Part shown: in pieces, positions 3,286 through 27,972 of the stretch
Layout of the letters: each line of letters opens with the position of its first letter
Position numbering within the stretch: position 1 is the first letter of the stretch
IMG/VR virus record: IMGVR_UViG_3300028114_000657
Span: 1-29,053 of that record
Source: a virus
DNA length: 29,053 nucleotides
Reading direction: 5' to 3' (one strand)
Translations under genes and position numbers: made by a program
The notes under the pieces: model-generated
What the model saw: only the letters and a program-made list of their open reading frames with translations
Told to the model about the DNA's origin: nothing
The model's database searches: none

Positions 3286-3291
3286 TATAAT
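3286..3291 (+). promoter_or_regulatory. -10 box of near-leaderless promoter
   Basis: TATAAT lies 7 nt before the ATG at 3299 and overlaps the end of the preceding gene. Confidence 0.5.
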
Positions 3292-3298
3292 ACTAAAT

Positions 3299-3508
3299 AT
3301 GAGAAAAATATTATCCACCATATCTGTATTAATACTATCTGTCTCTTTGACTTCTTGCGGTATGCTAGAAAACAGATACCGTTATGAGTGCCATGACCCA
3401 GAGAACTGGTATAATAAAGAGTGCACTGTTCCAGTCTGCTTAGCAGATGGATTATGTACAAAAGATATACTTGGTTTTGATCCTGCGGAGGGTGGAGTAA
3501 ATGAGTAG
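3299..3508 (+). CDS. Small phage lipoprotein
   Basis: 69 residues. A lysine/arginine start, hydrophobic core and LTSC lipobox (Cys about residue 20) mark a lipoprotein signal. The mature part is short, with four further cysteines and an ENRYRYEC motif followed by DPENWYNKEC. I recall this pattern from small conserved lipoproteins of marine and freshwater myophages, function unknown. It overlaps the next membrane protein by 8 nt, so the two are probably co-translated and may act together in the envelope. Confidence 0.7.
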   Translation: MRKILSTISVLILSVSLTSCGMLENRYRYECHDPENWYNKECTVPVCLADGLCTKDILGFDPAEGGVNE

Positions 3509-3857
3509 AAAAAGATATTCATCAGATGAATTAGATGCAAGACTAAAGTTTTTCCTTGGAATGACACTAGGAACAATTTTATTGTTTACAACAATGGGTA
3601 TTCTTTATGCCCTTGTTTTTGTAACACAGCCAATAGGTGAGCAGTCAGAAAATGATAAGATGTTCTTTAATGTCTTGTCATCTGTGGCAACATTTATCAC
3701 AGGTACACTGGCTGGTATTTTGATTGGTAAAAATGGTGGAAGCTCAGAAGTTACACAAACTTCTCAGCCATATGAGCAACAGTCTATTCAGACATCTAAG
3801 CCTACTGCAACACAAGCAGTAGATGAACTTGATGATCTTGATGATTTTATTGAATAA
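3501..3857 (+). CDS. Two-helix membrane protein, possible holin
   Basis: 118 residues with two transmembrane helices (about 17-42 and 55-75), a short N-terminus with charged residues, and a hydrophilic Gln/Thr then Asp/Glu-rich C-terminal tail (ending LDDLDDFIE). The first helix, NDKMFFNVLSS-type linker and glycine-rich second helix resemble membrane proteins that follow the ENRYRY lipoprotein in other phages. Holin-like topology is visible, but its distance from the endolysin makes the assignment uncertain. Confidence 0.6.
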   Translation: MSRKRYSSDELDARLKFFLGMTLGTILLFTTMGILYALVFVTQPIGEQSENDKMFFNVLSSVATFITGTLAGILIGKNGGSSEVTQTSQPYEQQSIQTSKPTATQAVDELDDLDDFIE

Positions 3858-3868
3858 ATAATCAATTC

Positions 3869-3897
3869 TTGACACCATCTAGGGCAGATGGTATACT
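3869..3897 (+). promoter_or_regulatory. Consensus sigma70-type promoter with palindromic spacer
   Basis: TTGACA (3869-3874), a 17-bp spacer, then TATACT (3892-3897), also with a TGG extended -10. The spacer is bracketed by a perfect 7-bp inverted repeat, ACCATCT / AGATGGT (3874-3880 and 3886-3892), which touches both promoter hexamers and may be an operator. Confidence 0.75.
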
Positions 3898-3926
3898 TTA
3901 ATATACACATCTAAAGGGGTTGGGGC

Positions 3927-4451
3927 ATGACTTGTATTGCAGTGGTAAAACATGAAGATAAAATCTACATGGCTGGAGATCGTGGTGCTTCAGATGATGG
4001 AACAATTCTAGCACTTGATGCACCAAAGGTTTGGAAGATAGGTCCATACCTTATTGGATATGCAGGTGCAATGGATGGAGAAAGAATCCGTTACAACTTT
4101 AAACCAACACCTCCAAACATTAAAGATACTGATAAGTTTATGCAAACTAGATTTATCAAAGAGCTTCGTGAATTCTATAATGAGTTCTGGGTTGATACAT
4201 CTAAAGATGGTGATCTTGGTTTAATAGTGTGTGTGCGTGGTGAAATTTATGAACATAGTTCTGCCGATATGTCTTTATCTAAGTATACCCTTCCATATTT
4301 AGCTATGGGATCTGGAGCTGAGTATGCTTATGGAGTTCTCTATGCAACAGATAAACAAAAAAATGCAAGAAATAGAGTGATGTCTGCAGTATCTGCTGCA
4401 ATTAAATTTAGCCCATCATGCATGGGACCAGTTGACATCGTTAGCCTTTAA
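3927..4451 (+). CDS. HslV/proteasome-beta-like Ntn hydrolase (peptidase)
   Basis: 174 residues, the usual length of HslV. After removal of Met the N-terminus is TCIAVV, placing a threonine nucleophile at position 1. The mature numbering then gives Asp17 (AGDRG) and Lys33 (APKVWKIG), the catalytic Thr1/Asp17/Lys33 set of proteasome beta and HslV subunits; a GYAG motif and a later GSGAEYAYGVLYA segment also fit the fold. No partner ATPase (HslU, ClpX-like) is visible nearby. It has its own consensus promoter and an AAAGGGG ribosome site. Likely a cytoplasmic self-compartmentalising peptidase, perhaps for virion maturation or host protein turnover (inference). Confidence 0.8.
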   Translation: MTCIAVVKHEDKIYMAGDRGASDDGTILALDAPKVWKIGPYLIGYAGAMDGERIRYNFKPTPPNIKDTDKFMQTRFIKELREFYNEFWVDTSKDGDLGLIVCVRGEIYEHSSADMSLSKYTLPYLAMGSGAEYAYGVLYATDKQKNARNRVMSAVSAAIKFSPSCMGPVDIVSL

Positions 4452-4454
4452 GGG

Positions 4455-4460
4455 TATACT
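4455..4460 (+). promoter_or_regulatory. -10 box of leaderless promoter
   Basis: TATACT followed by exactly 6 nt and the ATG at 4467; no ribosome site precedes the start. Confidence 0.55.
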
Positions 4461-4466
4461 TAATAT

Positions 4467-4688
4467 ATGGAAGAAGAGTTTGAAGAAGTATTAAATCAAA
4501 TGCAAAACAATGACTCAGACTACAAAGAGTTTGAGATTTGGTTAAATAACGGTATTGATAGAGGCTGGATTACAGAGCCTTTCTGCAATACTCATGATGG
4601 AGATCCATACATGACAGAAGAAGAAATGCAAGAGTGGTCAGATGGTGGAGATCCATGCCAAGTAGTATTTAAAATAAAAGAATCATAA
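4467..4688 (+). CDS. Small acidic conserved phage protein
   Basis: 73 residues, very acidic. The C-terminal half holds a WITEPFCNTHDGDPYMTEEE stretch and a later GGDPC, with two cysteines and a histidine that could bind metal. I recall a similar THDG...GGDPC pattern in small actinophage proteins of unknown function. It is expressed from its own leaderless promoter. Confidence 0.65.
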   Translation: MEEEFEEVLNQMQNNDSDYKEFEIWLNNGIDRGWITEPFCNTHDGDPYMTEEEMQEWSDGGDPCQVVFKIKES

Positions 4689-5606: not shown

Positions 5607-5678
5607 TGGGGTATAGTGAAATGGCTATCACGGAACGCTGTTAACGTTCAATACTTGGATCGTAACCAGGTACCCCAG
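5607..5678 (+). tRNA. tRNA-Asn (GTT)
   Basis: Acceptor stem TGGGGTA / TACCCCA, D stem GTGA/TCAC, anticodon stem GAACG/CGTTC with loop CTGTTAA (anticodon GTT), T stem CTTGG/CCAGG. The T loop ATCGTAA departs from the usual TTCRANY. CCA is not encoded (the discriminator G is followed by CAA). Confidence 0.8.
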
Positions 5679-5682
5679 CAAT

Positions 5683-5756
5683 GCGGATATTGCATAGTGA
5701 TAGTGCGTAACCTTGCCAAGGTTAATGTGCGGGTTTGATTCCCGCTATCCGCTCCA
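5683..5756 (+). tRNA. tRNA-Gly (GCC)
   Basis: Acceptor GCGGATA/TATCCGC, anticodon stem TAACC/GGTTA with loop TTGCCAA (anticodon GCC), T arm GCGGG-TTTGATT-CCCGC, encoded discriminator T and CCA. It lies 4 nt after tRNA-Asn, so the two are probably co-transcribed. Confidence 0.93.
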
Positions 5757-5827: not shown

Positions 5828-6244
5828 ATGGTAACAAAGTACGCTATGGATCTATTCAATGATCCTTTTTTTATTGGCTTTGGCAGGGAGCTAAGTCGCC
5901 TTAATGGTGCATATAAAACAAATTCACAGTCATATCCTCCATATGATCTTATTAAGCTAGATGAAGATACATATAGACTATCACTTGCAGTTGCAGGTTT
6001 TACAAAAGAAGATATTGATGTATCAGTAGATAATGGTACATTAATTATTAAGGGTGAGATTGTTGAAGTAACAGATGCTGAAGTTGTTCACAAAGGTATC
6101 GCAGCTCGTAAATTTGTAAGATCATTTGCACTTGGAGAATACATGGAAGTAACAGGGGCTGATCTAAAGGATGGTATGCTACATATTAATGTTGATCGTA
6201 TCGTTCCTGAAGAAAAGAAACCCAAGACAATTAAAATCAAGTAG
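5828..6244 (+). CDS. hsp20: Hsp20-family small heat shock protein
   Basis: 138 residues with an alpha-crystallin domain (about 38-130): YDLIKLDEDTYRLSLAVAGF, then DIDVSVDNGTLIIKGE, the AARKFVRSFALGE strand and the DGMLHINV strand near the end. It lacks a long C-terminal extension, ending in KTIKIK, which still contains an IxI-like motif. It is an ATP-independent holdase; phages carrying it may use it in capsid assembly or stress survival (inference). Own promoter and ribosome site; followed by a structured RNA/terminator. Confidence 0.92.
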   Translation: MVTKYAMDLFNDPFFIGFGRELSRLNGAYKTNSQSYPPYDLIKLDEDTYRLSLAVAGFTKEDIDVSVDNGTLIIKGEIVEVTDAEVVHKGIAARKFVRSFALGEYMEVTGADLKDGMLHINVDRIVPEEKKPKTIKIK

Positions 6245-6255
6245 TACAATATAGA

Positions 6256-6343
6256 AGTCCCCACACAGGACCTTAGAGATGGATTAGTTACCCATTTATA
6301 TATAACCTGGCCTTCGTGCCTGAATTACCTGTGTGGGGCTTTT
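6256..6343 (+). terminator. Long structured terminator or small RNA after hsp20
   Basis: Two 11-nt arms, CCCCACACAGG (6259-6269) and CCTGTGTGGGG (6328-6338), pair perfectly and are followed by CTTTT. They enclose 58 nt that can form inner hairpins (ATGG/CCAT around 6280-6293 and GGC/GCC around 6310-6320). Ordinary terminators lack such a long interior, so this may be a stable 3' RNA or a small RNA. Confidence 0.55.
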
Positions 6344-6354
6344 AACATTAGGTG

Positions 6355-6360
6355 TATAAT
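6355..6360 (+). promoter_or_regulatory. -10 box for HNH gene
   Basis: TATAAT, 9 nt before the ATG at 6370, giving at most a very short leader and no ribosome site. Confidence 0.45.
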
Positions 6361-6369
6361 TATAAAACC

Positions 6370-6645
6370 ATGTCAGAAAAAGAATTGGCAGTTTATAATA
6401 AACAGCAATTCAAGATGCGCCTTAAGGCAATTAAGGAGGCAAGTGGATGTGTTGACTGTGGAGAATGTAATCATATAGTTTTAGACTTTGATCACATTAG
6501 AGATAAAAAATATAATATTTCAAGAATGATCCACGATGGGTTTTCTTGGGCAGCAATAAAAAAAGAAATAGCAAAATGTGAAGTAGTCTGTGCCAACTGT
6601 CATAGAATAAGAACTCATAATCGTTTGACAGAAAAAGCTTCATAG
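6370..6645 (+). CDS. HNH endonuclease-like protein
   Basis: 91 residues from the ATG (an upstream in-frame GTG overlaps the -10 box and is unlikely). A first CxxC (CVDCG), LDFDHI with the Asp-His of the HNH core, then CANCHRIRTHNR with the second CxxC and the final His. This is the compact beta-beta-alpha-metal nuclease with two zinc knuckles common in phages. It may be a free-standing homing-type nuclease or a packaging-associated HNH; no intron or intein is evident. Its last codons contain the -35 of the endolysin promoter. Confidence 0.8.
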   Translation: MSEKELAVYNKQQFKMRLKAIKEASGCVDCGECNHIVLDFDHIRDKKYNISRMIHDGFSWAAIKKEIAKCEVVCANCHRIRTHNRLTEKAS

Positions 6646-6654
6646 TGATATACT
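6625..6654 (+). promoter_or_regulatory. Promoter of endolysin operon
   Basis: TTGACA (6625-6630), an 18-bp spacer and TGA-TATACT (6649-6654). It overlaps the 3' end of the HNH gene and precedes an AGGAGG ribosome site for the endolysin. Confidence 0.7.
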
Positions 6655-6682
6655 AGAATGTCGTACTTAACAGGAGGAACAA

Positions 6683-7474
6683 ATGGCGGTAAAAGGTAGT
6701 TTAGAAGCAATCATTGAGGTTGCAAAGAAAGAAGTAGGAACCATTGAAGGTCCTAAAGATAATGAAACAAAGTATGGAAAGTGGAGTGGTGCAAACTTCC
6801 TTCCATGGTGCCAGTCATTTGTTTCTTGGTCAGCATTTACAGCAGGATTAAATCCAAATAAATACCCAAAGACTGCTTCAACAGTTGCAGCAGCAGATTG
6901 GTTTAAGAAAAATAATCGTTGGGCAGATGCTCGTAATGATGATCCAACACCAGGTGATTGGATTTATTTTGATTTCCCAGATGATGGTGTAAATAGAATT
7001 TCACATGTTGGTATATGCATCAAGAACAATGGCGATGGAACAATTCAAGTTATTGAAGGAAATACTTCAGGAACTGCAAAGGGAGACCAGCGTAATGGCG
7101 GAATGTGCGTAGAAAAGACTCGTGCATACGTAAAGAATAAAAAGGGAATTATAAATGCAGTAGTTGGTTGGGGTCGTCCAGTTTATGCTGGTGAAGAGAA
7201 TGTCCCACTTCTGTCAAAGGGTGGATCAGTATCACAGCCTGCAACAACTACATCTCAGCCTGCAGCACCTGCAGCAAAGAAAGAGTTTAAGCCATTTAAG
7301 GTTGGCTCAAAAGGAGAAGCAGTAAAGAAAGTTCAAGAGCTTCTTAGTCTAAATGCAGATGGTGATTTTGGTCCAGGAACTGAAAAGGCAGTCAAGGCAT
7401 TTCAGAAGAAGTCTGGTCTTCCAGTAACAGGAATAGTAGATCAGGCAACTCTAAAAGCATTAAGAGGAAAGTAA
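6683..7474 (+). CDS. Endolysin: CHAP amidase/endopeptidase plus peptidoglycan-binding domain
   Basis: 263 residues. The N-terminal CHAP-type domain (about 1-170) has the catalytic Cys43 in LPWCQSFVSW, His108 in ISHVGIC and acidic/polar partners in VIEGNTS. A Pro/Ala/Thr linker (about 178-203) leads to a PG_binding_1 repeat (about 207-262: GSKGEAVKKVQELL, DGDFGPGTEKAVKAFQ). It cleaves peptidoglycan during lysis. It has no signal peptide, so it needs a holin; candidates are the small membrane proteins at 3106, 3501 and 13422. Strong promoter and GGAGGAACAA ribosome site. Confidence 0.92.
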   Translation: MAVKGSLEAIIEVAKKEVGTIEGPKDNETKYGKWSGANFLPWCQSFVSWSAFTAGLNPNKYPKTASTVAAADWFKKNNRWADARNDDPTPGDWIYFDFPDDGVNRISHVGICIKNNGDGTIQVIEGNTSGTAKGDQRNGGMCVEKTRAYVKNKKGIINAVVGWGRPVYAGEENVPLLSKGGSVSQPATTTSQPAAPAAKKEFKPFKVGSKGEAVKKVQELLSLNADGDFGPGTEKAVKAFQKKSGLPVTGIVDQATLKALRGK

Positions 7475-7475
7475 T

Positions 7476-7676
7476 ATGGAATCAACAAAGAAAACACTTC
7501 TCAAAACATTAAGCTGGGAGACATTCCATCTTGTTGGTGTTGCTGGAGTTATTTATTTGTTTACTGGTGAATGGGAATACGCCAGCCTTGGCGCATTGTT
7601 ATACATTGGTTGGGAAGCTATTGGATATTTTCTTCACGAAAGAGTATGGGCTAAATTTGGAAAGAAAATAAAGTAA
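7476..7676 (+). CDS. DUF2061 membrane protein
   Basis: 66 residues with two hydrophobic segments (about 16-31 and 36-52), a TLSWETFH motif at the start and YFLHERVW near the end, both typical of DUF2061. It lies 1 nt after the endolysin stop and 1 nt before the next gene, so it belongs to the lysis operon transcript. Role unknown; an inner-membrane protein beside an endolysin could help lysis. Confidence 0.8.
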   Translation: MESTKKTLLKTLSWETFHLVGVAGVIYLFTGEWEYASLGALLYIGWEAIGYFLHERVWAKFGKKIK

Positions 7677-7677
7677 T

Positions 7678-7860
7678 ATGGCTTTATACGAATATGATTG
7701 TATGCCCTGTGGTGTCAGAGTTGTTAAGGAAAGATCAATTAATGATTCTGACCCAGGGTATGCATGTGAGACTTGTAATCATACGTTAGTTCGTGTATAC
7801 TCTAATGTAGGAGTTGTATTCAATGGCTCTGGCTACTATTCTACAGATAACAGAAAGTAA
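7678..7860 (+). CDS. FmdB-family zinc ribbon protein
   Basis: 60 residues: ALYEYDCMPCG and YACETCN give the two CxxC knuckles, and the C-terminus GVVFNGSGYYSTD is the hallmark tail of FmdB-family (CxxC_CxxC_SSSS) ribbons. It is coupled to the gene before it (ATG 1 nt after TAA). The function of these ribbons is unclear; roles in regulation and nucleic acid binding have been proposed. Confidence 0.88.
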   Translation: MALYEYDCMPCGVRVVKERSINDSDPGYACETCNHTLVRVYSNVGVVFNGSGYYSTDNRK

Positions 7861-7869
7861 AGGTATACT

Positions 7870-8124
7870 ATGAGTACAATGATTACAGACGAAGTTGTAG
7901 AAAAAGAGTGGATACTTAAAGCAACAGATCGCTGTGATTCGTGTGCAGCAGAAGCCCTAGTTAAGGTCACTGGCCTTAATGGTGATCTTATGTTCTGCGG
8001 TCATCACTATAATAAGATTATGGATAATCCAGAAGGATACAATAAGATGATGTCCTTTATGATTAGCGTAGTTGATGAACGTGATAAATTAATTGAAAAT
8101 AAAGCAAAAGGTAAAGACTACTAA
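7870..8124 (+). CDS. Small zinc-binding actinophage-type protein (DUF7455-like)
   Basis: 84 residues. The core reads LKATDRCDSCAAEALVKV followed by LMFCGHHYNKI, i.e. CxxC plus CxHH metal ligands, a pattern I associate with a small family common in actinobacteria and their phages. An AAAGG ribosome site lies 6 nt before the ATG, and a TATACT box overlaps it. A second in-frame ATG (7879) sits 10 nt after that box, so an alternative short-leader start is possible. Confidence 0.75.
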   Translation: MSTMITDEVVEKEWILKATDRCDSCAAEALVKVTGLNGDLMFCGHHYNKIMDNPEGYNKMMSFMISVVDERDKLIENKAKGKDY

Positions 8125-8162
8125 TGCAAAATAATAAAATTAAGAAAGATATTTGTGTATGA
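8124..8162 (+). CDS. Possible 12-codon coupling mini-ORF
   Basis: ATG overlaps the preceding stop (TAATG), and its own TGA overlaps the ATG of the next gene (ATGA). It encodes MQNNKIKKDICV. It may only relay ribosomes from one gene to the next; no function of the peptide is implied. Confidence 0.25.
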   Translation: MQNNKIKKDICV

Positions 8163-8950
8163 GATTTCACTGGATGGAAAGGGGTAAAGATACTAGTACC
8201 CGTCATCTAAAAACAATTTCTGCAGTAGTTGATGAGTTTGGTTACGAATCTATTCTTCTTGTCTATCATTCTAAAATAGATGATAATTGGATTAAGGCAG
8301 CACGTGTTTTAGATACTAACCATAAATTTAAATATATGCCAGCTATTAGAACATACGCAATAAGTCCTGAATACTGTGCTATGATGGCTAAATCTTTTCA
8401 TGATATATCACCTAGTAGGCTTATGCTAAATATTGTTTCTGGTGATATACATCAAGAAGAAACATCAATAGATGATTTGGTATGGATTAATGACAAACTA
8501 GATACTGCAGAAAAAAGGCTTGAGTATACAGATGAATGGCTAAATAAATTTATTAAGATGTCTAATGGCACAGTATCTCAAATAGTCATGGGCGGTCATT
8601 CTAGCAAGACCAAGGCTATGGCTGAAAAATATGGGGCTACTCACCTTTCTATGCTTAATATGCACAAACAGATGTACAACAAACCTGATTTTATAAAAAA
8701 CTCTAAACAGATGCTGTCCTTAAGTGTTATTATAAATAATTCTAAAAAAGAAATTGATAGACTTTTACATACCAACAAAGGGTCAGAGCAGTGGACAATA
8801 TTTGGAAACAAAGAAAGCGTTAAAGAGCAAATCAATAGCTTAACAGATTTGGGTGCAACTGATGTATTGATCAGCTCACATCCAGAAGACAAAGATGTCT
8901 CATCAATACATTATTTAATAAAAGAAATGGTAGAGGAACAAAATGTATGA
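8159..8950 (+). CDS. Luciferase-like (LLM) flavin oxidoreductase family protein
   Basis: 263 residues. A TIM-barrel pattern of the bacterial luciferase-like superfamily is visible: MRFHWMERG start, a GYESILLVYH strand, PAIRTYAISPEYCAMMAK, then the diagnostic SPSRLMLNIVSGD strand, a GGHSSKTKAMAEKYGATHLS segment and GNKESVKEQINSLTDLGATD near the end. These enzymes use FMN or F420; F420 is common in actinobacteria. The substrate is unknown. ATG 8159 was chosen over the upstream TTG because it overlaps the mini-ORF stop. Its 3' end overlaps the nuclease gene by 8 nt. Confidence 0.75.
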   Translation: MRFHWMERGKDTSTRHLKTISAVVDEFGYESILLVYHSKIDDNWIKAARVLDTNHKFKYMPAIRTYAISPEYCAMMAKSFHDISPSRLMLNIVSGDIHQEETSIDDLVWINDKLDTAEKRLEYTDEWLNKFIKMSNGTVSQIVMGGHSSKTKAMAEKYGATHLSMLNMHKQMYNKPDFIKNSKQMLSLSVIINNSKKEIDRLLHTNKGSEQWTIFGNKESVKEQINSLTDLGATDVLISSHPEDKDVSSIHYLIKEMVEEQNV

Positions 8951-21867: not shown

Positions 21868-21874
21868 TGCCAAG

Positions 21875-22054: not shown

Positions 22055-22136
22055 ATCTCCAAGCATCGCCTGTTAATGGATCAATATGCCATCCAAACTC
22101 TTCCTGAAACTTTTCATTTCTTTCAATCATATTCAT
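22035..22136 (-). CDS. Small ORF with its own leaderless promoter
   Basis: 33 codons: MNMIERNEKFQEEFGWHIDP and then LTGDAWRYVESSR. It overlaps the next gene's start by 20 nt. The perfect promoter directly before it is the main support. Function unknown. Confidence 0.55.
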   Translation of the reverse strand: MNMIERNEKFQEEFGWHIDPLTGDAWRYVESSR

Positions 22137-22142
22137 GTATTT

Positions 22143-22171
22143 ATTGTAGCAAATTTGTGGGGATAAGTCAA
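22143..22171 (-). promoter_or_regulatory. Full -35/extended -10 leaderless promoter
   Basis: TTGACT, 17 bp, TACAAT with TGC just before it, 6 nt (AAATAC), ATG. It is the most complete example of the pattern in this window. Confidence 0.75.
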
Positions 22172-22177
22172 ATATAT

Positions 22178-22411
22178 TTAAACGTATTCGCCATCCCATA
22201 CTATTTCCCAAGATGTTGTATTGTATAGTCCTGCATCTACAGAAGCAGATTCTTCATTATATAAGCCACCATCAATGTATGGCACTGGAGGTGGGAAGTA
22301 TGTATCATCATATACAGTAATAGTTGGGATCTTGTTTCTTAATGTTATTGTTTCTCTACCAAGGTAAATATTGGCTTTAGGGTTTTTTTGACGAACCAAT
22401 ATTTGTGGCAC
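22178..22411 (-). CDS. Small beta-rich protein, probable virion accessory
   Basis: 77 residues: ILVRQKNPKANIYLGRETIT, then TYFPPPVPYIDGGLYNEES and a repeated AGLYNTTSWEIVWDG. It is proline and aromatic rich with no helix-forming regions. It overlaps the baseplate-like gene by 1 nt, so it probably shares its structural role. Confidence 0.5.
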   Translation of the reverse strand: MPQILVRQKNPKANIYLGRETITLRNKIPTITVYDDTYFPPPVPYIDGGLYNEESASVDAGLYNTTSWEIVWDGEYV

Positions 22412-22764
22412 TATGATGCTCCAGTTATATCGTTCACTACTGTCATAATTCCAGTCAATACTGTATATATAGTGTCTGGATCTGGGGTTGTGTCTGTGAT
22501 TTGAACATCATAAAAATATGATCCTGCAGCCAGTCCTCTGCCAACTGTAGATGTAATTGTACATCTCACGGTAGATGGCAAAACCTTTGTAGCAAGAGCT
22601 GTAGTCTTAGTACCCCCAGAACCTCTCTGAGTTCCGATGGTAAAGGCTACTGTTTCATATAGGGATATATCAAAATTACTGCCATCTTGGTTCTTCAAAA
22701 CAACATCAAATTCGTATGTATCACCACGGTAGTAGCTAAAGTCATGGTTTCCTGGAAATGGCAT
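22411..22764 (-). CDS. BppU-N-like baseplate/tail-type protein
   Basis: 117 residues. YYRGDTYEFDVVLKNQDGSN, ISLYETVAFTIGT, then RGLAAGSYFYDVQITD and GIMTVVNDIT form an Ig-like beta sandwich seen in the N-terminal domain of BppU-type baseplate proteins. A leadered promoter and AAAGGGGG ribosome site precede it. Its place on the - strand, far from the + strand surface proteins, is unusual. Confidence 0.65.
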   Translation of the reverse strand: MPFPGNHDFSYYRGDTYEFDVVLKNQDGSNFDISLYETVAFTIGTQRGSGGTKTTALATKVLPSTVRCTITSTVGRGLAAGSYFYDVQITDTTPDPDTIYTVLTGIMTVVNDITGAS

Positions 22765-22786
22765 ATGTCCCCCTTTTGTTTAACTG

Positions 22787-22795
22787 ATTATATCA
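22787..22795 (-). promoter_or_regulatory. Extended -10 promoter (leadered)
   Basis: TGA-TATAAT on the - strand about 22 nt before the ATG at 22764, with an AAAGGGGG site between. Confidence 0.65.
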
Positions 22796-22835
22796 CGGTT
22801 TAAAGTTCGGCGAAAAATAGAGGTCATAAACATTA

Positions 22836-23069
22836 CTACGCCCTATGAGGGCGATATTGGTTAATAGCCTGATTCGCCATCTTATTAGCATCATCTTCAG
22901 TATGAGCATACCCGTATGTGAGAAGGTTTAACCCATTGTAGAGTTCCCACTTCCAGGGAATTGGATCTATCCTGAAGTTTGTTTGAAGCCTCTTAGGGCT
23001 TCTTCCTCCATTCTTGCCTTTCTTAAATGGTGATACATACTCCTCAATTACTATCTTCAAGATGAACAC
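22836..23069 (-). CDS. Small basic-aromatic protein, paralogue of the gene at 21875
   Basis: 77 residues from GTG (a TTG at 23060, in a TTGA overlap with the upstream stop, would match the paralogue's start better). ILKIVIEEYV, IPWKWELYNGLNLLTYGYAH and DDANKMANQAI align with the 21875 protein; a basic insert (KKGKNGGRSPKR) lies between. The final codons form a CGCCCT/AGGGCG hairpin at 22839-22853. Confidence 0.65.
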   Translation of the reverse strand: MFILKIVIEEYVSPFKKGKNGGRSPKRLQTNFRIDPIPWKWELYNGLNLLTYGYAHTEDDANKMANQAINQYRPHRA

Positions 23070-23326
23070 TTCACATGCTTTGTCTGCTTATTCTTCTTGT
23101 TCCAAAGTATCTGATTGCCAACCAAGATCCTATCATTACAGACAGAGCAGGTGGTAATATACTGGCTTACAATCTTAACCCACTTAGCACCTTTGACAGG
23201 GGCATTATTGTTTTCTTTCTTTGCTTTCCTAAGTGCCTTTAGCCTAGATGGGGTCAGGATGTTGCCATCTTTGTCATATCTGACAGTGCTGAAAGAATTG
23301 TTCTTTGTTCTAACATTTTTAATCAT
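23057..23326 (-). CDS. Basic zinc-binding protein
   Basis: 89 residues from the ATG at 23326 (AAGGAT ribosome site). A basic N-terminus with SRLKALRKAKK precedes TTCSVCNDRILVGNQ and HVKC, giving CxxC plus HxxC ligands. The basic helix next to a zinc knuckle suggests nucleic acid binding. Confidence 0.6.
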   Translation of the reverse strand: MIKNVRTKNNSFSTVRYDKDGNILTPSRLKALRKAKKENNNAPVKGAKWVKIVSQYITTCSVCNDRILVGNQILWNKKNKQTKHVKCSS

Positions 23327-23334
23327 GACTATCC

Positions 23335-23544
23335 TTAATAGTTTCTGTGTTTCCAGTTTAGCAGGGTATAGACAAAATGACCATACCAAGTCTTACTACA
23401 TATCTTAATACCTTCTCCCCCATAATGATCCATCATGAATAGGATAAGTCTGGTTTTGTCGTTTGTCCTGATAAATTTACCACAGTCAATGCAGGACTCA
23501 AAGATATATTTGGGTAAAGGTTTGTCAAAGTTCACATCATTCAT
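23335..23544 (-). CDS. Small zinc-binding protein
   Basis: 69 residues: FESCIDCGKFIRTNDKTRLI and GGEGIKICSKTWYGHF supply CxxC and a later Cys/His. No family recognised. Leaderless promoter. Confidence 0.6.
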   Translation of the reverse strand: MNDVNFDKPLPKYIFESCIDCGKFIRTNDKTRLILFMMDHYGGEGIKICSKTWYGHFVYTLLNWKHRNY

Positions 23545-23550
23545 ATACCA

Positions 23551-23559
23551 AGCATAGCA
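23551..23559 (-). promoter_or_regulatory. Extended -10 leaderless promoter
   Basis: TGC-TATGCT, 6 nt (TGGTAT), ATG on the - strand. Confidence 0.55.
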
Positions 23560-23580
23560 GATTTTGGACGGTATGTAAAG

Positions 23581-23673
23581 CTAAGAACACTTAGGACAAA
23601 CCCTAGTAGGATACTTAATCCCATAAGGTACTTGATACATAGATCCACAGTTAAAGCATAGGACATTTAGCAT
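23581..23673 (-). CDS. Zinc-ribbon microprotein
   Basis: 30 codons: VLCFNCGSMYQVPYGIKYPT, then RVCPKCS. Two perfect CxxC knuckles 18 residues apart make a minimal zinc ribbon. Its ATG overlaps the upstream stop (TAATG). Confidence 0.65.
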   Translation of the reverse strand: MLNVLCFNCGSMYQVPYGIKYPTRVCPKCS

Positions 23674-23861
23674 TACTTACAAGCCAGACAGTAAAAGGGT
23701 GTTCTGAGGTTGTCTATATGAGTGTATATGGTTTGAGCACAGTTATGACATTTAATATTAATCATATCTGGGCTTGAAGTAATCATTGAGATTTTAAGGC
23801 TATTTGTGTAGTATACCTTAGTGACATACCATGTGATTAATATTAGGCTTAGTGTTATCAT
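23673..23861 (-). CDS. Membrane-anchored zinc-ribbon protein
   Basis: 62 residues: an N-terminal hydrophobic helix (LSLILITWYVTKVYY), then KCHNCAQTIYTHI and FYCLACK with two CxxC knuckles 16 residues apart. It is like the next gene's ribbon but tethered to the membrane. Leaderless promoter. Confidence 0.65.
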   Translation of the reverse strand: MITLSLILITWYVTKVYYTNSLKISMITSSPDMINIKCHNCAQTIYTHIDNLRTPFYCLACK

Positions 23862-23867
23862 ATATCA

Positions 23868-23876
23868 ATTGTAGCA
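23868..23876 (-). promoter_or_regulatory. Extended -10 leaderless promoter
   Basis: TGC-TACAAT, 6 nt (TGATAT), ATG on the - strand. Confidence 0.65.
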
Positions 23877-23898
23877 TATGGCTAGCTGTAGCATATAC

Positions 23899-23988
23899 CT
23901 AGTCTTTAAAAGACTCGTAGATACCCATAGCAATCAATATTCCAGAGAAAGCTAGCATGCCGTATATCCAGTAAATGATGATGTCCAT
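23899..23988 (-). CDS. Single-helix membrane microprotein
   Basis: 29 codons: IIIYWIYGMLAFSGILIAMG forms one helix, followed by IYESFKD. It starts exactly 6 nt after a TATAAT box. It is the last gene before the repeat region. Confidence 0.55.
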   Translation of the reverse strand: MDIIIYWIYGMLAFSGILIAMGIYESFKD

Positions 23989-23994
23989 AGAGTG

Positions 23995-24000
23995 ATTATA
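23995..24000 (-). promoter_or_regulatory. -10 box of leaderless promoter
   Basis: TATAAT, 6 nt, ATG on the - strand, at the edge of the GGTTTGATA repeat region. Confidence 0.55.
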
Positions 24001-24493
24001 CCTGGTTTAAATAGGTTTTATATGTCCGATTTGGGTGGTTTGATAGGGTTTGATAGGATAATAAATCTTACTGATATTTTTTAGATGTGGGTTTCGTGGA
24101 GGAAAGTGGAGTAAAGTGGGGGATTGAGCACTTAGACAGATGGCGTCGTAATGTCCAGGACGTTTTAAAGCCTGCTCCCAAACCTCCAAACCTTATATAT
24201 CCCCTGGATTATACCGCCAAACCTTCCTTTTGTCAAACCTTACATGCTTATTTCCAAACCTTTATAGCTTAAAAACCATATAAAAAACATAGACAAAATG
24301 AGCAAATTTGTCCAATAATATATATAAAGGTTTGATAAATATTTAAAAATCAGGAGAAAAGGTTTGATATCGTAATGTTTTATATAGAGAGGTTTTGTGT
24401 AGTGGTTTGTCTATCTCCCCCGCCAAAAAGCGGGGACGCCAAAGGCGTGATCGTAATGTCTAATAGGATTATTTAGCGGCCTTGCGACGGGAC
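24001..24493. other. Long stretch without a supported gene
   Basis: About 490 bp with no ORF I can support on either strand. It holds most of the repeats described for 24037-24842 and two adjacent GC-rich hairpins, CCCCGC-CAAAAA-GCGGGG (24418-24435) and ACGCC-AAA-GGCGT (24436-24448). Confidence 0.6.
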
Positions 24494-24664
24494 TTATAAA
24501 GAATACAGAACTATACCTATAATAGCTAATGTAATAACAAACCCTGACACTATAAAGTAAAAGAAACCTTTATCTAGTTTGTAAGGTTTGATATCAGAAT
24601 GCCTGGTAAAACCATCATTAATAAAATATGGTCCTCCATGCTTTGAGAAATAGTTTCTGCCCAT
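24494..24664 (-). CDS. Small membrane protein inside the repeat region
   Basis: 56 codons: a hydrophilic N-terminus (GRNYFSKHGGPYFINDGFTR, HSDIKPYKLDK) and a C-terminal helix FFYFIVSGFVITLAIIGIVL. A perfect leaderless promoter precedes it. It contains one repeat copy in its coding sequence (ATCAAACCTT). Topology suggests a C-terminally anchored protein. Confidence 0.6.
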   Translation of the reverse strand: MGRNYFSKHGGPYFINDGFTRHSDIKPYKLDKGFFYFIVSGFVITLAIIGIVLYSL

Positions 24665-24670
24665 ATAAAG

Positions 24671-24679
24671 ATTATAACA
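24671..24679 (-). promoter_or_regulatory. Extended -10 leaderless promoter
   Basis: TGT-TATAAT, 6 nt (CTTTAT), ATG on the - strand. The -35 position (24694-24699) falls in a repeat copy (GGTTTGACA), so repeat-binding factors could control it. Confidence 0.6.
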
Positions 24680-24865
24680 TGGTTTTATGGTTTGACAAAT
24701 AAGGTTTGATAGTATAAAATGGGAGGTTTTTTAGAGCCTTCGTAATGTCCTCAAATAGGAGAAAAATTTTGAGATCTCGTAATCCCAAAAAATGGGAAAA
24801 ATTTGGACATATCGTAATAAGGTTTGAAGAAATGGTTTGAATGCTCGGCCCCACCACCGCAGTGG

Positions 24866-25126
24866 CTAAGGGTTTAAAATTAAATAAACAATACTCTGTG
24901 AGCTTTTGAATCCTGTATCTTCTACACCAGCCACACGAAGCAAACCTTTAAATGCTTGCTCTATACTTTCTTGTGCTAGTGGAGTGGATTCTACTATCCC
25001 CTCAAAAATACAATGGGCTAGTGGAAATCCAACATCAAACATATCAAATAAATCTTCAAGTTCTGGAATGCGTTCTATCCATACCTCATTAAGGATTTCT
25101 ATTTTCTTAGCGTATTCTGTAGTCAT
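24866..25126 (-). CDS. Small acidic phage protein, paralogue of the gene at 12314
   Basis: 86 residues, helical and acidic: RIPELEDLFDMFDVGFPLAH, then IVESTPLAQESIEQAFKGLL and GVEDTGF. It shares its core with the 12314 protein. It overlaps the upstream gene by 20 nt. It is the last gene of the right-hand operon before the repeat region. Confidence 0.7.
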   Translation of the reverse strand: MTTEYAKKIEILNEVWIERIPELEDLFDMFDVGFPLAHCIFEGIVESTPLAQESIEQAFKGLLRVAGVEDTGFKSSQSIVYLILNP

Positions 25127-25310
25127 GGTGTTGATCTTCCTTTTCTGCTTCTGCTGAGTCCGTTAGTGTGATTAAGCGATTGTAAATTACATTAGGTGAT
25201 AATCGTACCAGATAAACACCAATCATGTCAAGGTCAAGGCGAAGGTCTGCCAAGATATTGCATAATTGTATTGCTACCTTTTCTTCCTTCGTTACCAGTT
25301 TTTTTCTCAT
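25107..25310 (-). CDS. Small conserved phage protein
   Basis: 67 residues: AIQLCNILADLRLDLDMIGVY, then LSPNVIYNRLITLTDSAEAE. I recall a similar LDLD..G.YL pattern in actinophage proteins, unknown role. It has its own leadered promoter and an AAGGAG ribosome site. Confidence 0.65.
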   Translation of the reverse strand: MRKKLVTKEEKVAIQLCNILADLRLDLDMIGVYLVRLSPNVIYNRLITLTDSAEAEKEDQHHDYRIR

Positions 25311-25326
25311 GATTCTCCTTACCTAC

Positions 25327-25335
25327 ATTGTACCA
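25327..25335 (-). promoter_or_regulatory. Extended -10 promoter
   Basis: TGG-TACAAT on the - strand, 16 nt before the ATG at 25310. The promoter abuts the T-tract of the upstream terminator. Confidence 0.6.
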
Positions 25336-25379
25336 AAAAGAGGAGAGGGGCGCAACCCACCACTAATTGCGCCTCCTCT
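25335..25379 (-). terminator. Rho-independent terminator (- strand)
   Basis: On the - strand, AGAGGAGGCGCAA and TTGCGCC....TCCTCT pair (with a 4-nt bulge) and are followed by TTTTT. It ends the 27.9-25.4 kb operon. Confidence 0.75.
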
Positions 25380-25391
25380 AATGTAGCCTGA

Positions 25392-25778
25392 TTATATGGC
25401 TACGTGCTCAGCGGAAACCTTTGGCAGGTATGCTTCAATGAATAACTGCCAGTCTAATACATTGCCCTGGTTATCAATGATAGTTTCTTTAGAGATATCA
25501 ATGACTACCGTCGTATCTCCTAGATCTTCGTTAAGATTATTAATAGCATAAATACCAAACCCTGTCTCACTAAATACGGAGTCTTGAATTAAATAACTAA
25601 TAACCATACGAGTAAAGTAACTAGCATCACTCCACCTAGGTTTAGCATGTAGCAGCGCCATTGCTAGGTCCCGCTGCCATTCTGTCTCACCCCAGTGGCT
25701 ATATAGGACAACATGTGCAGTGGGCTCACCAATTGCTGCCTCTACATCTTTAAATACATAGCAAATTCTTGCTCCCAT
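25392..25778 (-). CDS. Conserved phage protein of unknown function
   Basis: 128 residues: HVVLYSHWGETEWQRDLAMA, then AKPRWSDASYFTRMVISYLI and TGFGIYAIN. I recall this SHWGE...DLA.AL.HA.PRW.D.SY pattern from a conserved phage family; its function is unknown. The His/Trp/Glu cluster might be an active site. Coupled to the upstream gene by TAATG. Confidence 0.7.
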   Translation of the reverse strand: MGARICYVFKDVEAAIGEPTAHVVLYSHWGETEWQRDLAMALLHAKPRWSDASYFTRMVISYLIQDSVFSETGFGIYAINNLNEDLGDTTVVIDISKETIIDNQGNVLDWQLFIEAYLPKVSAEHVAI

Positions 25779-25912
25779 TATTCTTGCTCCTCTAGATCTG
25801 TAATTAGTTTGGCAATGATGTTATGTGCTTGAATGTTTTCTGTCTCTGACCCACCCCACAAAAGTTTTTGGGCCAGATCTAGTTGACCATTAAGATAGAT
25901 ATCAGTTACCAT
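25778..25912 (-). CDS. Small helical protein
   Basis: 44 codons: MVTDIYLNGQLDLAQKLLWG, then TENIQAHNIIAKLITDLEEQE, helical and acidic. TAATG overlaps at both ends show it belongs to the coupled operon, which is the main evidence that it is a gene. Confidence 0.6.
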   Translation of the reverse strand: MVTDIYLNGQLDLAQKLLWGGSETENIQAHNIIAKLITDLEEQE

Positions 25913-26217
25913 TAGTCTTCATCCTCTTCTAGTAAATCAACAGGGTCTAAAATATAACCTTTTTCTAACATCCATTCTAATACATCATCATGGTGTTGCT
26001 CTGCTCCATACTCTAGAGAGAAGCCCTTGCCTGCCTCTACAGACTCGCAGAGACCATTCCATACAGTATCAAGGTTGACGTCTGCATGGTAAGACTCATC
26101 ATCTAGTATATCTACAATAACATTCCATGTCCATAGCCATACCATGGGCAGGCCTAGACTTGTTGTCTGCAGTATCTCTAGACACTTGTGTAGTTTATCT
26201 CTATCTTCCGTTTTCAT
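25912..26217 (-). CDS. Conserved phage protein of unknown function
   Basis: 101 residues from the ATG at 26217, which overlaps the upstream stop (ATGA) behind a GAGG site; the longer frame up to 26271 lies inside the upstream gene. It is helical and acidic with many Trp residues (VWLWTWNVIVDILDD) and an acidic end (DLLEEDED). No motif recognised. Confidence 0.65.
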   Translation of the reverse strand: MKTEDRDKLHKCLEILQTTSLGLPMVWLWTWNVIVDILDDESYHADVNLDTVWNGLCESVEAGKGFSLEYGAEQHHDDVLEWMLEKGYILDPVDLLEEDED

Positions 26218-26849
26218 TTTACCTCTACTTTCGGTGGTAGTCCCATTAACTCTAACACAGGCCACTGACATTTAGGGCACACATATTCTTCATGCTCCTC
26301 CATGTATAACTCATCAGGATCTCCTGCATGGTAGTGGTCACATTCTTGGCATTTCCAGTTATATTCCATGCCGTCAAGTTTTTCACCTTTGAGGTACTCA
26401 TGCTCTCCACCCCAACCAGTCTCTTCCTCATATGACAAAGTAAATAATAAATCAGGGTACTGAGCAGACAGTTCAGCAAGAGCCTCATCTGGAATTCCCC
26501 AAGGGGATTCAAAGTTATACTGAATTACATAGTTCTCACCATTGACTTGCTCTCCACCAATGTAAACACTACTTGCATCCCATTTAACTCCCCAATTAGT
26601 AATGTTCCATGTATACCAATCGTTGCCATTTGTAGATTCTGATTTCTGCAAAGGGTATGTGTCTAGATCAGTTGGAGCAATTATGTTCCAATATGAGAAG
26701 ATAGGACTATCATTAGTTTGTATGCTTACTTCATTAGTCTGCCACTCATCTATTGGCACAGAGATAGGCTTACCTACCTGCTCCTTTAACTTAAGGACAG
26801 ATGACTCAGATCCTTCTACAGTTAATCCGTTATAAACCCAATTTGGCAT
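26214..26849 (-). CDS. YubB/DUF1281-like ferredoxin-fold protein with zinc knuckles
   Basis: 211 residues. MPNWVYNGLTVEGSESSVLK, the NWGVKWDASS motif, FESPWGIPDEALAELSAQYP and FTLSYEEETGWGGEHEY match the DUF1281/YubB ferredoxin-like family common on phages and plasmids. A C-terminal extension holds CQEC and CPKC, a probable zinc site. Function unknown; the family is often found near DUF932 genes in mobile DNA. Confidence 0.8.
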   Translation of the reverse strand: MPNWVYNGLTVEGSESSVLKLKEQVGKPISVPIDEWQTNEVSIQTNDSPIFSYWNIIAPTDLDTYPLQKSESTNGNDWYTWNITNWGVKWDASSVYIGGEQVNGENYVIQYNFESPWGIPDEALAELSAQYPDLLFTLSYEEETGWGGEHEYLKGEKLDGMEYNWKCQECDHYHAGDPDELYMEEHEEYVCPKCQWPVLELMGLPPKVEVK

Positions 26850-27081
26850 GGTGGTCTCTTTCTATTTGTTGGCGGTCTATAGATAAATTATACGTCATAA
26901 CGTATAGGTCTGTCAAGCAGTCTTTATATCCCTCTCCCCACTGCTTATCCTCAAACTCTTTATATTGCATTTCATTCATCATATTTTTAAGTTCACCGTG
27001 CATGATATCAATTAGTGGTATGGAGATATCTTCTAATGCTTTAGTTAAATGTTCGGGTAGGAAAGGATACTTAGCGCTCAT
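26830..27081 (-). CDS. Small helical protein of unknown function
   Basis: 83 residues, helical: LPEHLTKALEDISIPLIDIM, then MQYKEFEDKQWGEGYKDCLT and RQQIERDHHAKLGL. No motif recognised. A GGAG site precedes the ATG; both ends overlap neighbouring genes. Confidence 0.6.
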   Translation of the reverse strand: MSAKYPFLPEHLTKALEDISIPLIDIMHGELKNMMNEMQYKEFEDKQWGEGYKDCLTDLYVMTYNLSIDRQQIERDHHAKLGL

Positions 27082-27250
27082 TTATATACTCCAATAGGTG
27101 ATCACAGGTAGCAATGGCTCCTTCATAGTAAGCGTCTGACTCATAGTACTCGTCATCACTAATAGGAATATCATTGTTAGCGTCCTCAACGTCTTGCTCC
27201 AAGGAGATTTTGTGAATTTTTATATACTCTCGTAATGTGTCTATGTTCAT
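27071..27250 (-). CDS. Small acidic protein of unknown function
   Basis: 59 residues from the ATG at 27250 (in an ATGA overlap with the upstream stop; a longer frame exists but lies inside that gene). Helical and acidic with DDEYYESDAYYEGAIAT. No family recognised. Confidence 0.55.
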   Translation of the reverse strand: MNIDTLREYIKIHKISLEQDVEDANNDIPISDDEYYESDAYYEGAIATCDHLLEYINER

Positions 27251-27372
27251 TTTAATCCATAAAATATTTTGCATGCTTCGCAGTAGCAGTCGTTGTGACT
27301 CCATATTTCCTTTAATTCGTCACAATATGGGTCATCGTATTCGCTTATGTGCTTTAGTTTTGATATGTCCAT
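27247..27372 (-). CDS. Cysteine-rich microprotein
   Basis: 41 codons: KLKHISEYDDPYCDELKEIW, then SHNDCYCEACKIFYG. CYCEAC plus an upstream Cys and His could bind one zinc. A TATACT box 7 nt before the ATG supports it, as does the overlap with the next gene. Confidence 0.6.
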   Translation of the reverse strand: MDISKLKHISEYDDPYCDELKEIWSHNDCYCEACKIFYGLK

Positions 27373-27376
27373 AGTA

Positions 27377-27565
27377 TTAAGTATAGTGGCTTTCGCCAAT
27401 AATATCAAGGTGTGGCTCTGTGAGTTGTGTCACATCATATCTGTTTATCCTAATAATGTGAGGCTGTTCACAGATACAGTTAGGCTGAATCACCAGGGAA
27501 TTACTAGTTGTGATTTCAAACAGGGTATCACAATTAGTACATATATACTCATGCTTAGTCCACAT
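27377..27565 (-). CDS. Small zinc-ribbon protein
   Basis: 62 residues from the ATG (an upstream GTG at 27589 is possible). HEYICTNCDTLFEITTS and PNCICEQP carry CxxC and CxC knuckles, like phage zinc-ribbon proteins with a YICpnC start. It lies 1 nt after the preceding stop. Confidence 0.65.
   Translation of the reverse strand: MWTKHEYICTNCDTLFEITTSNSLVIQPNCICEQPHIIRINRYDVTQLTEPHLDIIGESHYT
27380..27385 (-). promoter_or_regulatory. -10 box of near-leaderless promoter
   Basis: TATACT, 7 nt, ATG at 27372 on the - strand, inside the end of the 27377 gene. Confidence 0.45.
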
Positions 27566-27566
27566 A

Positions 27567-27641
27567 CTATTTCTCACATTCACATTCACATTTATAGTTA
27601 GGGTCTTGGATGGGTATTCTACAAAAAGGATGAGACTTCAT
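27567..27641 (-). CDS. Very small cysteine-rich ORF
   Basis: 24 codons, MKSHPFCRIPIQDPNYKCEC followed by ECEK. TAATG coupling to the upstream gene and close linkage to the next suggest translation; with four Cys and one His it could bind a metal. Confidence 0.4.
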   Translation of the reverse strand: MKSHPFCRIPIQDPNYKCECECEK

Positions 27642-27799
27642 TAGTCAAAGTACCCTTCTGCCCAAAGCCCTTGTAAGAATTCACTTGCCATGTACAATCT
27701 TGAGTGTAGCCAAGGGTCATCGTCAGGATTCACGGTAGTTATAGCAGAGTCAATAGCATTAGTCATCTCATCTAAATCTTCTTTAGTATATCCTAACAT
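27641..27799 (-). CDS. Small conserved phage protein
   Basis: 52 codons: GYTKEDLDEMTNAIDSAITT, then PWLHSRLYMASEFLQGLW. It is an acidic helical hairpin. A GGGGAGAG ribosome site precedes the ATG, which overlaps the upstream stop (TAATG). Confidence 0.6.
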   Translation of the reverse strand: MLGYTKEDLDEMTNAIDSAITTVNPDDDPWLHSRLYMASEFLQGLWAEGYFD

Positions 27800-27960
27800 T
27801 ACTCTCCCCAATACTTTACAATAGTTTCCATAGTGATATGTAGGTGGCAGTCACAGGGTTCTCCACCCATGTTCTCCTCAAATTCAAAGTGCGATAGGTT
27901 GTCCTCATAGATTTCTTCTACTAGTTCGTGTATTGTGTATGGTTTGTATGTTGTAGTCAT
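27799..27960 (-). CDS. Small phage protein heading the right-hand operon
   Basis: 53 codons: YTIHELVEEIYEDNLSHFEF, then GGEPCDCHLHITMETIVKYW. CDCHLH may bind metal. It is the first gene of the - operon and starts leaderless. Confidence 0.6.
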   Translation of the reverse strand: MTTTYKPYTIHELVEEIYEDNLSHFEFEENMGGEPCDCHLHITMETIVKYWGE

Positions 27961-27966
27961 ATATTT

Positions 27967-27972
27967 ATTGTA
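27967..27972 (-). promoter_or_regulatory. -10 box of leaderless promoter
   Basis: TACAAT, 6 nt (AAATAT), ATG at 27960, preceded by a TG directly next to the hexamer. Confidence 0.6.

Follow-up and report, generated by a model that had tools for sequence, protein, structure and literature searches.

How is a gene expressed when a promoter −10 hexamer stands only six nucleotides (nt) before its start codon? This question is raised by a stretch of viral DNA of 29,053 nt (positions 1–29,053 of the IMG/VR record IMGVR_UViG_3300028114_000657), which was analysed as a whole and is called here "the window"; it comes from a 37% GC phage known only from metagenome-type records. A preliminary description, based on the letters of the window alone, had listed ATG codons on both strands that follow a TANNNT hexamer at 6–8 nt and had interpreted them as starts of leaderless genes. 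These leaderless-type starts are real and beyond chance. Very probably, host promoters of the sigma-A type produce leaderless mRNAs, in most cases from the first genes of transcription units, and these mRNAs would be read by the ordinary leaderless route of the host.

Spacing of hexamers and start codons

Direct reading of the 17 cited start sites on both strands revealed TANNNT at the distance given for each of them: 13 at 6 nt (4467, 9948, 19543 and 21009 on the + strand; 19489, 21684, 21852, 22136, 23544, 23861, 23988, 24664 and 27960 on the − strand), three at 7 nt (3299, 20953, 27372) and one at 8 nt (13761). The 6-nt group had been announced as eleven starts, although the members listed for it add up to 13; all of its hexamers are in place, and the four further starts at 7–8 nt stand as described. 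TGn directly precedes the hexamer in 10 of the 17, in agreement with the "many" claimed. TTGACT is present 17 bp upstream in three starts (20953, 21684, 22136) rather than two; at 4467, this position is occupied by a perfect TTGACA. The base preceding the ATG is always a pyrimidine (15 T, 2 C).

For the counts, genes were called by a home-made codon-usage program, which is blind to the sequence upstream of the start (65 genes, 63 scorable starts), and a −10 box was considered "strong" if two or more of the three variable positions of TANNNT matched TAA. Across all 1290 ATGs of the window, the bare TANNNT-N6-ATG pattern shows no enrichment (41 occurrences, compared with 35.4 ± 6.2 over 200 dinucleotide shuffles), and counting was therefore restricted to gene starts. 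There, a strong −10 stands exactly 6 nt upstream in 10/63 called starts and in 0–2 at any of the remaining spacings between 0 and 30 nt (binomial P ~9e-12), while the internal ATGs of the window show no peak (4/637 at 6 nt). The tighter TA[TC]AAT occurs before window ATGs 10 times at 6 nt and 0–7 times at other spacings, mostly 0–3, and a consensus promoter scan of 19000–28200 gave a modest excess over shuffles (55 vs. 39.4 ± 7.1). The peak holds 10 rather than 13 starts because the caller missed or shifted some of them: ATGs 23544 and 23861 were missed, and the starts of 3299 and 21684 were displaced (4 of the 17 cited starts). The 23544 hexamer, TATGCT, fails the strong definition regardless of calling. 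Gene callers based on Shine-Dalgarno (SD) sequences may likewise mis-start or miss leaderless genes.

Three IMG/VR searches yielded related sequences (80 + 16 + 14 = 110 loci, some sharing one contig). Together with the window and the 76.7-kb contig G001, to part of which the window is 99.99% identical from base 524 onward, they make 112 sequences, and 57 non-redundant ones were retained. A sequence was removed if more than 20% of its length was covered at ≥90% identity by a retained one; the window itself, being contained in G001, was removed from this set. The non-viral record L112 was excluded, and L111 (58% GC, no leaderless starts) was retained. With starts less than 45 nt from a locus end left out, 2043 starts remained. 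A strong −10 precedes 281 of them (13.8%) by exactly 6 nt; for 7 nt the count is 41, for 5 nt it is 12 and for each remaining spacing 9–42. The 21,148 internal ATGs of the relatives are flat (0.35–0.81% per spacing, 0.7% at 6 nt). At least four strong 6-nt starts were found in 37/57 sequences. No such peak was detected in five control phages, those of E. coli (T4, 0/92), Pseudomonas (phiKZ, 0/67), Bacillus (SPO1, 0/80), Pelagibacter (HTVC010P, 0/67) and Prochlorococcus (P-SSM2, 1/49); the bare TANNNT at 6 nt gave 1, 3, 1, 1 and 4 starts in them, which is not above the maxima at other spacings. The enrichment over shuffled sequence by which the preliminary description proposed to be judged did not appear for the bare pattern in the window; at called starts, both in the window and in its relatives, the 6-nt spacing stands out against the other spacings and the internal ATGs.

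Gene context, promoter anatomy and leader length

We suggest that the hexamers would be ordinary sigma-A-type −10 boxes of the host, often extended and often accompanied by a −35 box at 17 bp. The host sigma-A holoenzyme would bind them and begin transcription on the A of the ATG, giving an mRNA without a 5′ leader, on whose terminal AUG the host ribosome would initiate, a route that actinobacteria use for numerous genes of their own. This last step is proposed because an RTG at the mRNA 5′ end was reported to be necessary and sufficient for initiation in mycobacteria (PMC4633059), and because in M. tuberculosis the primary start site overlaps the start codon for 26% of the genes having one (PMC3898074). 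Two interchangeable formats would be used by the phage group: the leaderless one, mostly at unit heads, and a leadered one, in which a promoter of this type is separated from the gene by at least 8 nt, usually with an SD.

The genomic context of leaderless starts was analysed in the relatives, excluding starts which lie less than 60 nt from a locus end or have no upstream neighbour (2022 remaining); a start was considered "head-like" if it has a divergent neighbour or a gap of at least 20 nt upstream. Head-like positions are occupied by 235/316 leaderless starts vs. 526/1706 others (Fisher p 1.7e-47), and the remaining 81 leaderless starts are not head-like by this rule. Overlap with the upstream gene was found for 16/316 leaderless starts vs. 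768/1706 others. An SD is present upstream of 14/316 vs. 554/1706, a difference which is partly forced because the −10 box sits in the SD position.

The preliminary description had seen the format mainly on microgenes and interpreted it as a deliberate expression class, possibly of early genes or of genes translated under modified ribosome conditions. Within the window the cited genes are indeed short (median 56 aa for the 17 vs. 91 aa for 52 others, p = 0.005), but in the relatives the leaderless genes are as long as the rest (median 90 vs. 95 aa, p = 0.72). Therefore, the link to microgenes is local to the window and was rejected as a property of the class. Similarly, 13 of the 17 cited starts lie in the right part of the window (19.2–28 kb), while the arms of G001 do not differ significantly (leaderless 2/43 left vs. 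9/78 right, p = 0.32), which rules out confinement to one arm of this contig. It is hence unlikely that the leaderless genes are co-induced early or under altered ribosomes, mainly for the synthesis of host-takeover microproteins. Such a regulatory class would agree with the short genes and the crowding in the window, with the canonical −35/−10 boxes, which suit an early action of the host polymerase, and with M. tuberculosis, where leaderless mRNAs increase in starvation and favour toxin–antitoxin genes (PMC3898074). However, in addition to the data on size and arms, it is opposed by the switching of some orthologs between leader formats and by the use of the same promoter type for SD-led genes. 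The highest-scoring promoter of the window (3869–4451 with its gene, + strand) consists of TTGACA, a 17-bp spacer and TGgTATACT (3892–3897), and it feeds an HslV/proteasome-subunit-like gene (3927–4451) via a leader of about 23 nt with AAAGGGG; promoter type and leader format are for this reason regarded as separate choices. Large structural genes such as the tape-measure gene of G001 are SD-led. Many SD-led genes are kept, modified ribosomes are unnecessary for the explanation, and what marks the leaderless genes is the unit-head position rather than size. An HslV-like gene also occurs in the phage DSL-LC01, where it adjoins a WhiB gene.

The sigma-A-type reading is based on the alignment of 280 leaderless-type starts, taken from the 2039 starts lying at least 60 nt from a locus end. 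Several features for which these starts had not been selected emerge: T51 T49 G41 A49 C37 (%) at −35 to −31, a 17-bp spacer, T53, A54/G26, T65 and G80 (%) at −17 to −14, and T70/C15 (%) at −1, a pyrimidine in 85%. As judged from this logo, the promoter is of the housekeeping form TTGACA-17-TRTGnTATAAT with a pyrimidine–purine start, and because of this layout the +1 may be placed on the A of the ATG. Of these 280 starts, 275 are ATG, 5 are GTG and none is TTG, whereas TTG accounts for 51 of the 1759 others. That the promoters are read by a sigma factor or activator of the phage instead of by host sigma-A is improbable on the evidence of the promoter sequences: two cultured Planktophila phages are described as encoding a sigma-70-like factor together with WhiB (PMC10202952), and a WhiB gene is present in the window phage, but the logo is that of a housekeeping promoter and the leadered genes have promoters of the same type.

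Leader lengths were predicted for 486 intergenic promoters; each half of the sequences was scored with a matrix for which the opposite half had served as training set. The leader would have 0 nt in 181 cases, 1 nt in 27, 2–7 nt in only 9 and 8–60 nt in 168 (127 of them with an SD); in 10 cases it is negative, and in 91 it exceeds 60 nt or no start follows. Since related genes fall into both halves of the training split, the prediction was repeated with generic motifs. The extended −10 (n = 471) gave 149 promoters at 0 nt, 13 at 1 nt, 13 at 2–7 nt and 175 at 8–60 nt (128 with an SD), and a −35 matching at least 5/6 (n = 233) gave 78, 1, 5 and 82 (61 with an SD), respectively; a generic −10 with neither extension nor −35 yielded 0 nt in 29/1458. 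These distributions bear on a possible short leader with a wandering start point, in which the mRNAs would have 1–5 nt before the AUG. The 41 starts at 7 nt alongside the 281 at 6 nt and the four window starts at 7–8 nt are what such a wandering would produce, but the 6-nt peak is sharp, a −1 pyrimidine precedes the A of the start codon and leaders of 2–7 nt are nearly absent, which makes this version highly improbable. Chance occurrence in AT-rich DNA, to which the shuffle-level count of the bare pattern and the modest excess in the promoter scan might point, is virtually ruled out by peaks specific to gene starts in the window and its relatives and by the flat controls.

Several observations nevertheless weigh against a uniform leaderless reading. 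If the +1 is fixed, the four starts at 7–8 nt would have leaders of 1–2 nt. An SD-like string occurs in 14/79 predicted 0–1-nt leaders of the good −35 subset. The 761 head-like starts comprise 235 leaderless ones, 212 with an SD (by strict strings) and 314 with neither, so that the two-format picture is incomplete; mis-called starts, looser SDs or other promoters are possible reasons for this remainder. The bare pattern over all window ATGs is unenriched, the gene caller is home-made, and 20/57 sequences have only 0–3 strong 6-nt starts, among them eight loci recruited via the 4712 protein (1–3 each) and L111.

Leaders of 49–51 nt form a sharp second cluster among the pooled relatives (33/486 predicted promoters), perhaps representing one conserved leader. 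In the window, gene 6370 (6344–6645) has TATAAT 9 nt before its ATG, which would give a leader of about 3 nt, a length that is rare here. On the − strand, at 24236–23989, a perfect TTGACA-17-TATAAT is followed by about 213 nt without a called gene; it lies near inverted repeats (24233–24265/24335–24367) and a 35-nt direct repeat (24748–24817). It is possible that this promoter drives a small RNA; an Rfam scan detected tRNAs only and had no match at this site.

Conservation of the starts and kinship of the phage

The orthologs were compared in two ways. In the broad count, TANNNT was sought and near-identical sequences were included, except for the copies of the window phage (G001, L002, L003, L082, L083, L098 and L099); in the strict count, matches above 90% identity were excluded and a strong −10 at 6–7 nt was demanded, orthologs being available for 15 of the 17 queries. 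Among orthologs of at most 90% protein identity, a strong −10 was retained at 6–7 nt of the aligned ATG, or of another in-frame ATG nearby, in 87/159 distinct upstreams of the leaderless genes vs. 61/675 for other window genes; for the aligned ATG alone, the values are 60/159 vs. 23/675.

Conservation is most pronounced for five starts. The putative leaderless promoter at 4432–4688 (+; coordinates include the gene) consists of TTGACA, a 17-bp spacer and TATACT (4455–4460) 6 nt before ATG 4467 of a 73-aa open reading frame (ORF), and it is kept in 14/15 orthologous upstreams in both counts. For 21852 (21727–21864, −; TGaTACAAT, a 41-aa Cys-rich ORF) the arrangement is kept in 16/16 (broad), often with quite different flanks, and in 14/14 (strict). 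It is retained in 9/9 and 7/7 for 19543 (19531–19707, +; TGgTATGAT, 54 aa), in 6/6 and 5/5 for 24664 (24494–24676, −; TTGTCA, 16 bp, TGtTATAAT, a 56-aa ORF), and at 7 nt in 5/5 orthologs of the near-leaderless 3299 (3286–3508, +; TATAAT, 69 aa).

Smaller ortholog sets were obtained in the broad count for three further starts. A hexamer at 6–7 nt is present in 3/3 orthologs of 21009 (20997–21584, +; TATAAT, 191 aa), one of them near-identical, and in 3/4 of 27960 (27799–27972, −; TACAAT at 6 nt, a 53-aa ORF). For 23988 (23899–24000, −; TATAAT, a 29-aa ORF), both orthologs passing the filter have it, and in a looser comparison it is present in L104 and absent from L103. The family of 9948 (9936–11090, +; TGaTATAAT, 380 aa), in which conservation is middling (24/35 by the strict count), demonstrates TANNNT-N6-ATG in 24/35 orthologs of the broad count, and in 24/24 of these the ATG is displaced by codons relative to the window. 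Since the spacing is kept in spite of this displacement, the start appears to follow the promoter. Two window genes that are not leaderless by the strict test have leaderless orthologs (19/31 for gene 6370, 8/14 for gene 20554), which suggests that the leader format changes over time.

The other starts argue less well for the proposed arrangement or speak against it. Conservation is middling for 19489 (19253–19501, −; TATGAT at 19496–19501, 78 aa), with TANNNT at 6 nt in 9/13 (broad) and 3/7 (strict), and for 23861 (23673–23873, −; TGcTACAAT, a 62-aa ORF), with 7/9 and 4/8. It is poor for 20953 (20864–20966, −; TTGACT, 17 bp, TGaTATACT, 7 nt, a 29-aa ORF), in which 4/33 matched upstreams (2/32 strict) have the motif, and for 21684 (21574–21696, −; TTGACT, 17 bp, TATTAT, 6 nt, a 36-aa Cys-rich ORF), with 5/14 and 4/13. 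The 23544 start (23335–23556, −; TTTACA, 17 bp, TGcTATGCT, a 69-aa ORF) has TANNNT in 3/4 orthologs but none by the strict hexamer. The weakest case is 13761 (13747–14447, +; TATGAT, 8 nt, a 228-aa glycosyltransferase-2-like gene): a hexamer at 6–7 nt was found in 1/10 matched upstreams, with a shifted start, and in none by the strict count, while the 8-nt spacing is retained in L045 and L084. The relatives of 22136 (22035–22148, −; TTGACT, 17 bp, TGcTACAAT, 6 nt, 33 aa) are 97–100% identical, and 2/2 of them keep the motif; neither this ORF nor that of 27372 (27247–27385, −; TTGATA, 17 bp, TATACT, 7 nt, 41 aa) has a diverged ortholog in the related loci, and both are therefore only putatively coding.

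Kinship of the phage points indirectly to an actinobacterial host. The window carries an SD-led gene of the WhiB family (12057–12344, +), an actinophage marker, whose protein matched 136 phage records, all of them actinophages (127 Streptomyces, 9 Rhodococcus). WhiB was found in 18/20 related records, and among 14 control genomes only Corynebacterium matches. The best 20 listed matches of the G001 terminase (53% identity) and of its DnaE-type polymerase (52–55% identity) are all Streptomyces phages, although the full hit lists of both, with weaker matches, extend to phages of different hosts (301/1366 polymerase records are Pseudomonas phages). The terminase was detected with phrog_9; the phrog_2 terminase family matched 1/8 related records, G001 not being among the matched. 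Combined with WhiB, a −10 box at 6 nt of the start provides a usable clue that an otherwise unknown phage infects an actinobacterium. Altogether, the proposals of the preliminary description that leaderless promoters are used throughout this phage group and that the host is actinobacterial gain support from the spacing peak, promoter logo, conservation and kinship.

Some data restrict this assignment. In the Streptomyces-phage relatives the peak is small: among phages whose host is stated or predicted to be an actinobacterium, the bare TANNNT at 6 + 7 nt occurs in 5 + 2 of 61 starts of the first Karimac stretch, 4 + 2 of 47 in BillNye and 7 + 5 of 95 in DSL-LC01, and the second Karimac stretch, which has repeated end genes in common with the first, has no clear peak (6 + 5 of 118, other spacings up to 8). 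The strong −10 boxes number 2 + 0, 3 + 1, 2 + 3 and 1 + 1, respectively. A search by taxonomy name turned up no Planktophila phage, and phages of known low-GC freshwater actinobacteria are thus missing from the comparison set. The 9948 protein matched 276 bases of a single contig, which is labelled as a Burkholderiaceae metagenome-assembled genome; a Burkholderiaceae host was discounted because the domain is found in phages of many hosts.

The shared part of the 9948–11090 protein is a C-terminal stretch of about 110 aa (residues ~260–370) which occurs in 89 phage records; in Roseobacter phages the features under this match are annotated as major capsid and portal protein. Possible auxiliary genes lie at 5828–9598 (HSP20, CHAP endolysin, luciferase-like monooxygenase, SNase and thioredoxin), and the luciferase-like protein had no match among the genome contigs searched for a host. 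A block of glycosyltransferase, nucleotidyltransferase-like and FkbM methyltransferase genes occupies 13761–18540, and six tRNA genes for Asn, Gly, Arg, Ile(TAT), Met and Asp are located at 5607–5756, 18576–18805 and 28201–28273.

Compact divergent pairs and known systems

The oddest part of the finding is represented by compact divergent promoters with both arms leaderless. In the related loci, 26/31 both-leaderless divergent pairs have 32–62 nt between the start codons, compared with 6/32 pairs with one leaderless member and 2/16 with none; the independent events are fewer than 31, because several pairs are mutual orthologs. Two pairs occur in the window, 19489/19543 (53 nt) and 20953/21009 (55 nt). 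The intergenic DNA of such pairs consists of two interleaved promoters, without a leader on either side. Perhaps, the two promoters are mutually exclusive; if so, few regions controlling two genes could be smaller than these pairs. One can speculate that they are built-in switches in which the polymerase, by occupying one of the two promoters within 32–62 nt, chooses which leaderless protein is made; this would provide an early decision or noise control without leader or regulator, possibly timed to a moment of infection favouring leaderless mRNAs, but we regard so far-reaching a role as rather unlikely. The bidirectional promoters of E. coli are likewise compact, divergent and able to compete for RNA polymerase, and they were reported to compete only if one side is strongly active (PMC12825309); the phage pairs differ in that both arms are leaderless and, in 26/31 pairs, fill 32–62 nt.

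The proposed host sigma-A-type promoters with leaderless starts would place this phage group among several known systems. Earlier work (PMC3160421, PMC12340547) described TANNNT near −12 in leaderless genes of Actinobacteria, Deinococcus-Thermus and others. The TA-led genes (PMC3160421, PMC3898074, PMC4633059) resemble those of the phage in having TANNNT about 12 nt upstream, no SD, an operon-proximal position and an actinobacterial setting. In M. tuberculosis, however, 7% TGN and no −35 consensus were reported (PMC3898074), whereas 80% of the phage starts have G at −14, and their −35 box stands at 17 bp; the low-GC groups are described as reinforcing the leaderless motif with TG (PMC3160421). 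In Deinococcus-Thermus (PMC12340547, 2025), TANNNT at a fixed ORF spacing was combined with experimental validation of leaderless expression, although this is another phylum and the main text of that paper does not contain the word "phage".

The Streptomyces phages Karimac and BillNye of the Stanwilliamsviridae resemble the window phage in the terminase (53% identity), the DnaE-type polymerase (52–55% identity) and WhiB, and it may be akin to this family; they differ from it in that the window phage is of 37% GC and of metagenomic record. In mycobacteriophages (Cluster O, PMC4351075; Adephagia gene 90, PMC11373665), SigA-like promoters were predicted with +1 at the first base of the start codon, and these predictions include a divergent pair with both arms leaderless (PMC4351075, PMC11373665). 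Among the listed titles and abstract openings of open-licence PMC papers there was no report of leaderless starts across a phage family, which is no proof of absence. The mycobacteriophage reports concern isolated predicted cases, whereas here 281/2043 starts in 57 sequences were counted along with controls, so that about one in seven called gene starts in this actinophage group is of the leaderless type, beside SD-led starts from like promoters. What is added to the known systems is this scale within one actinophage group, the strong −35 and TG elements, the near absence of 2–7-nt leaders and the compact double-leaderless regions.

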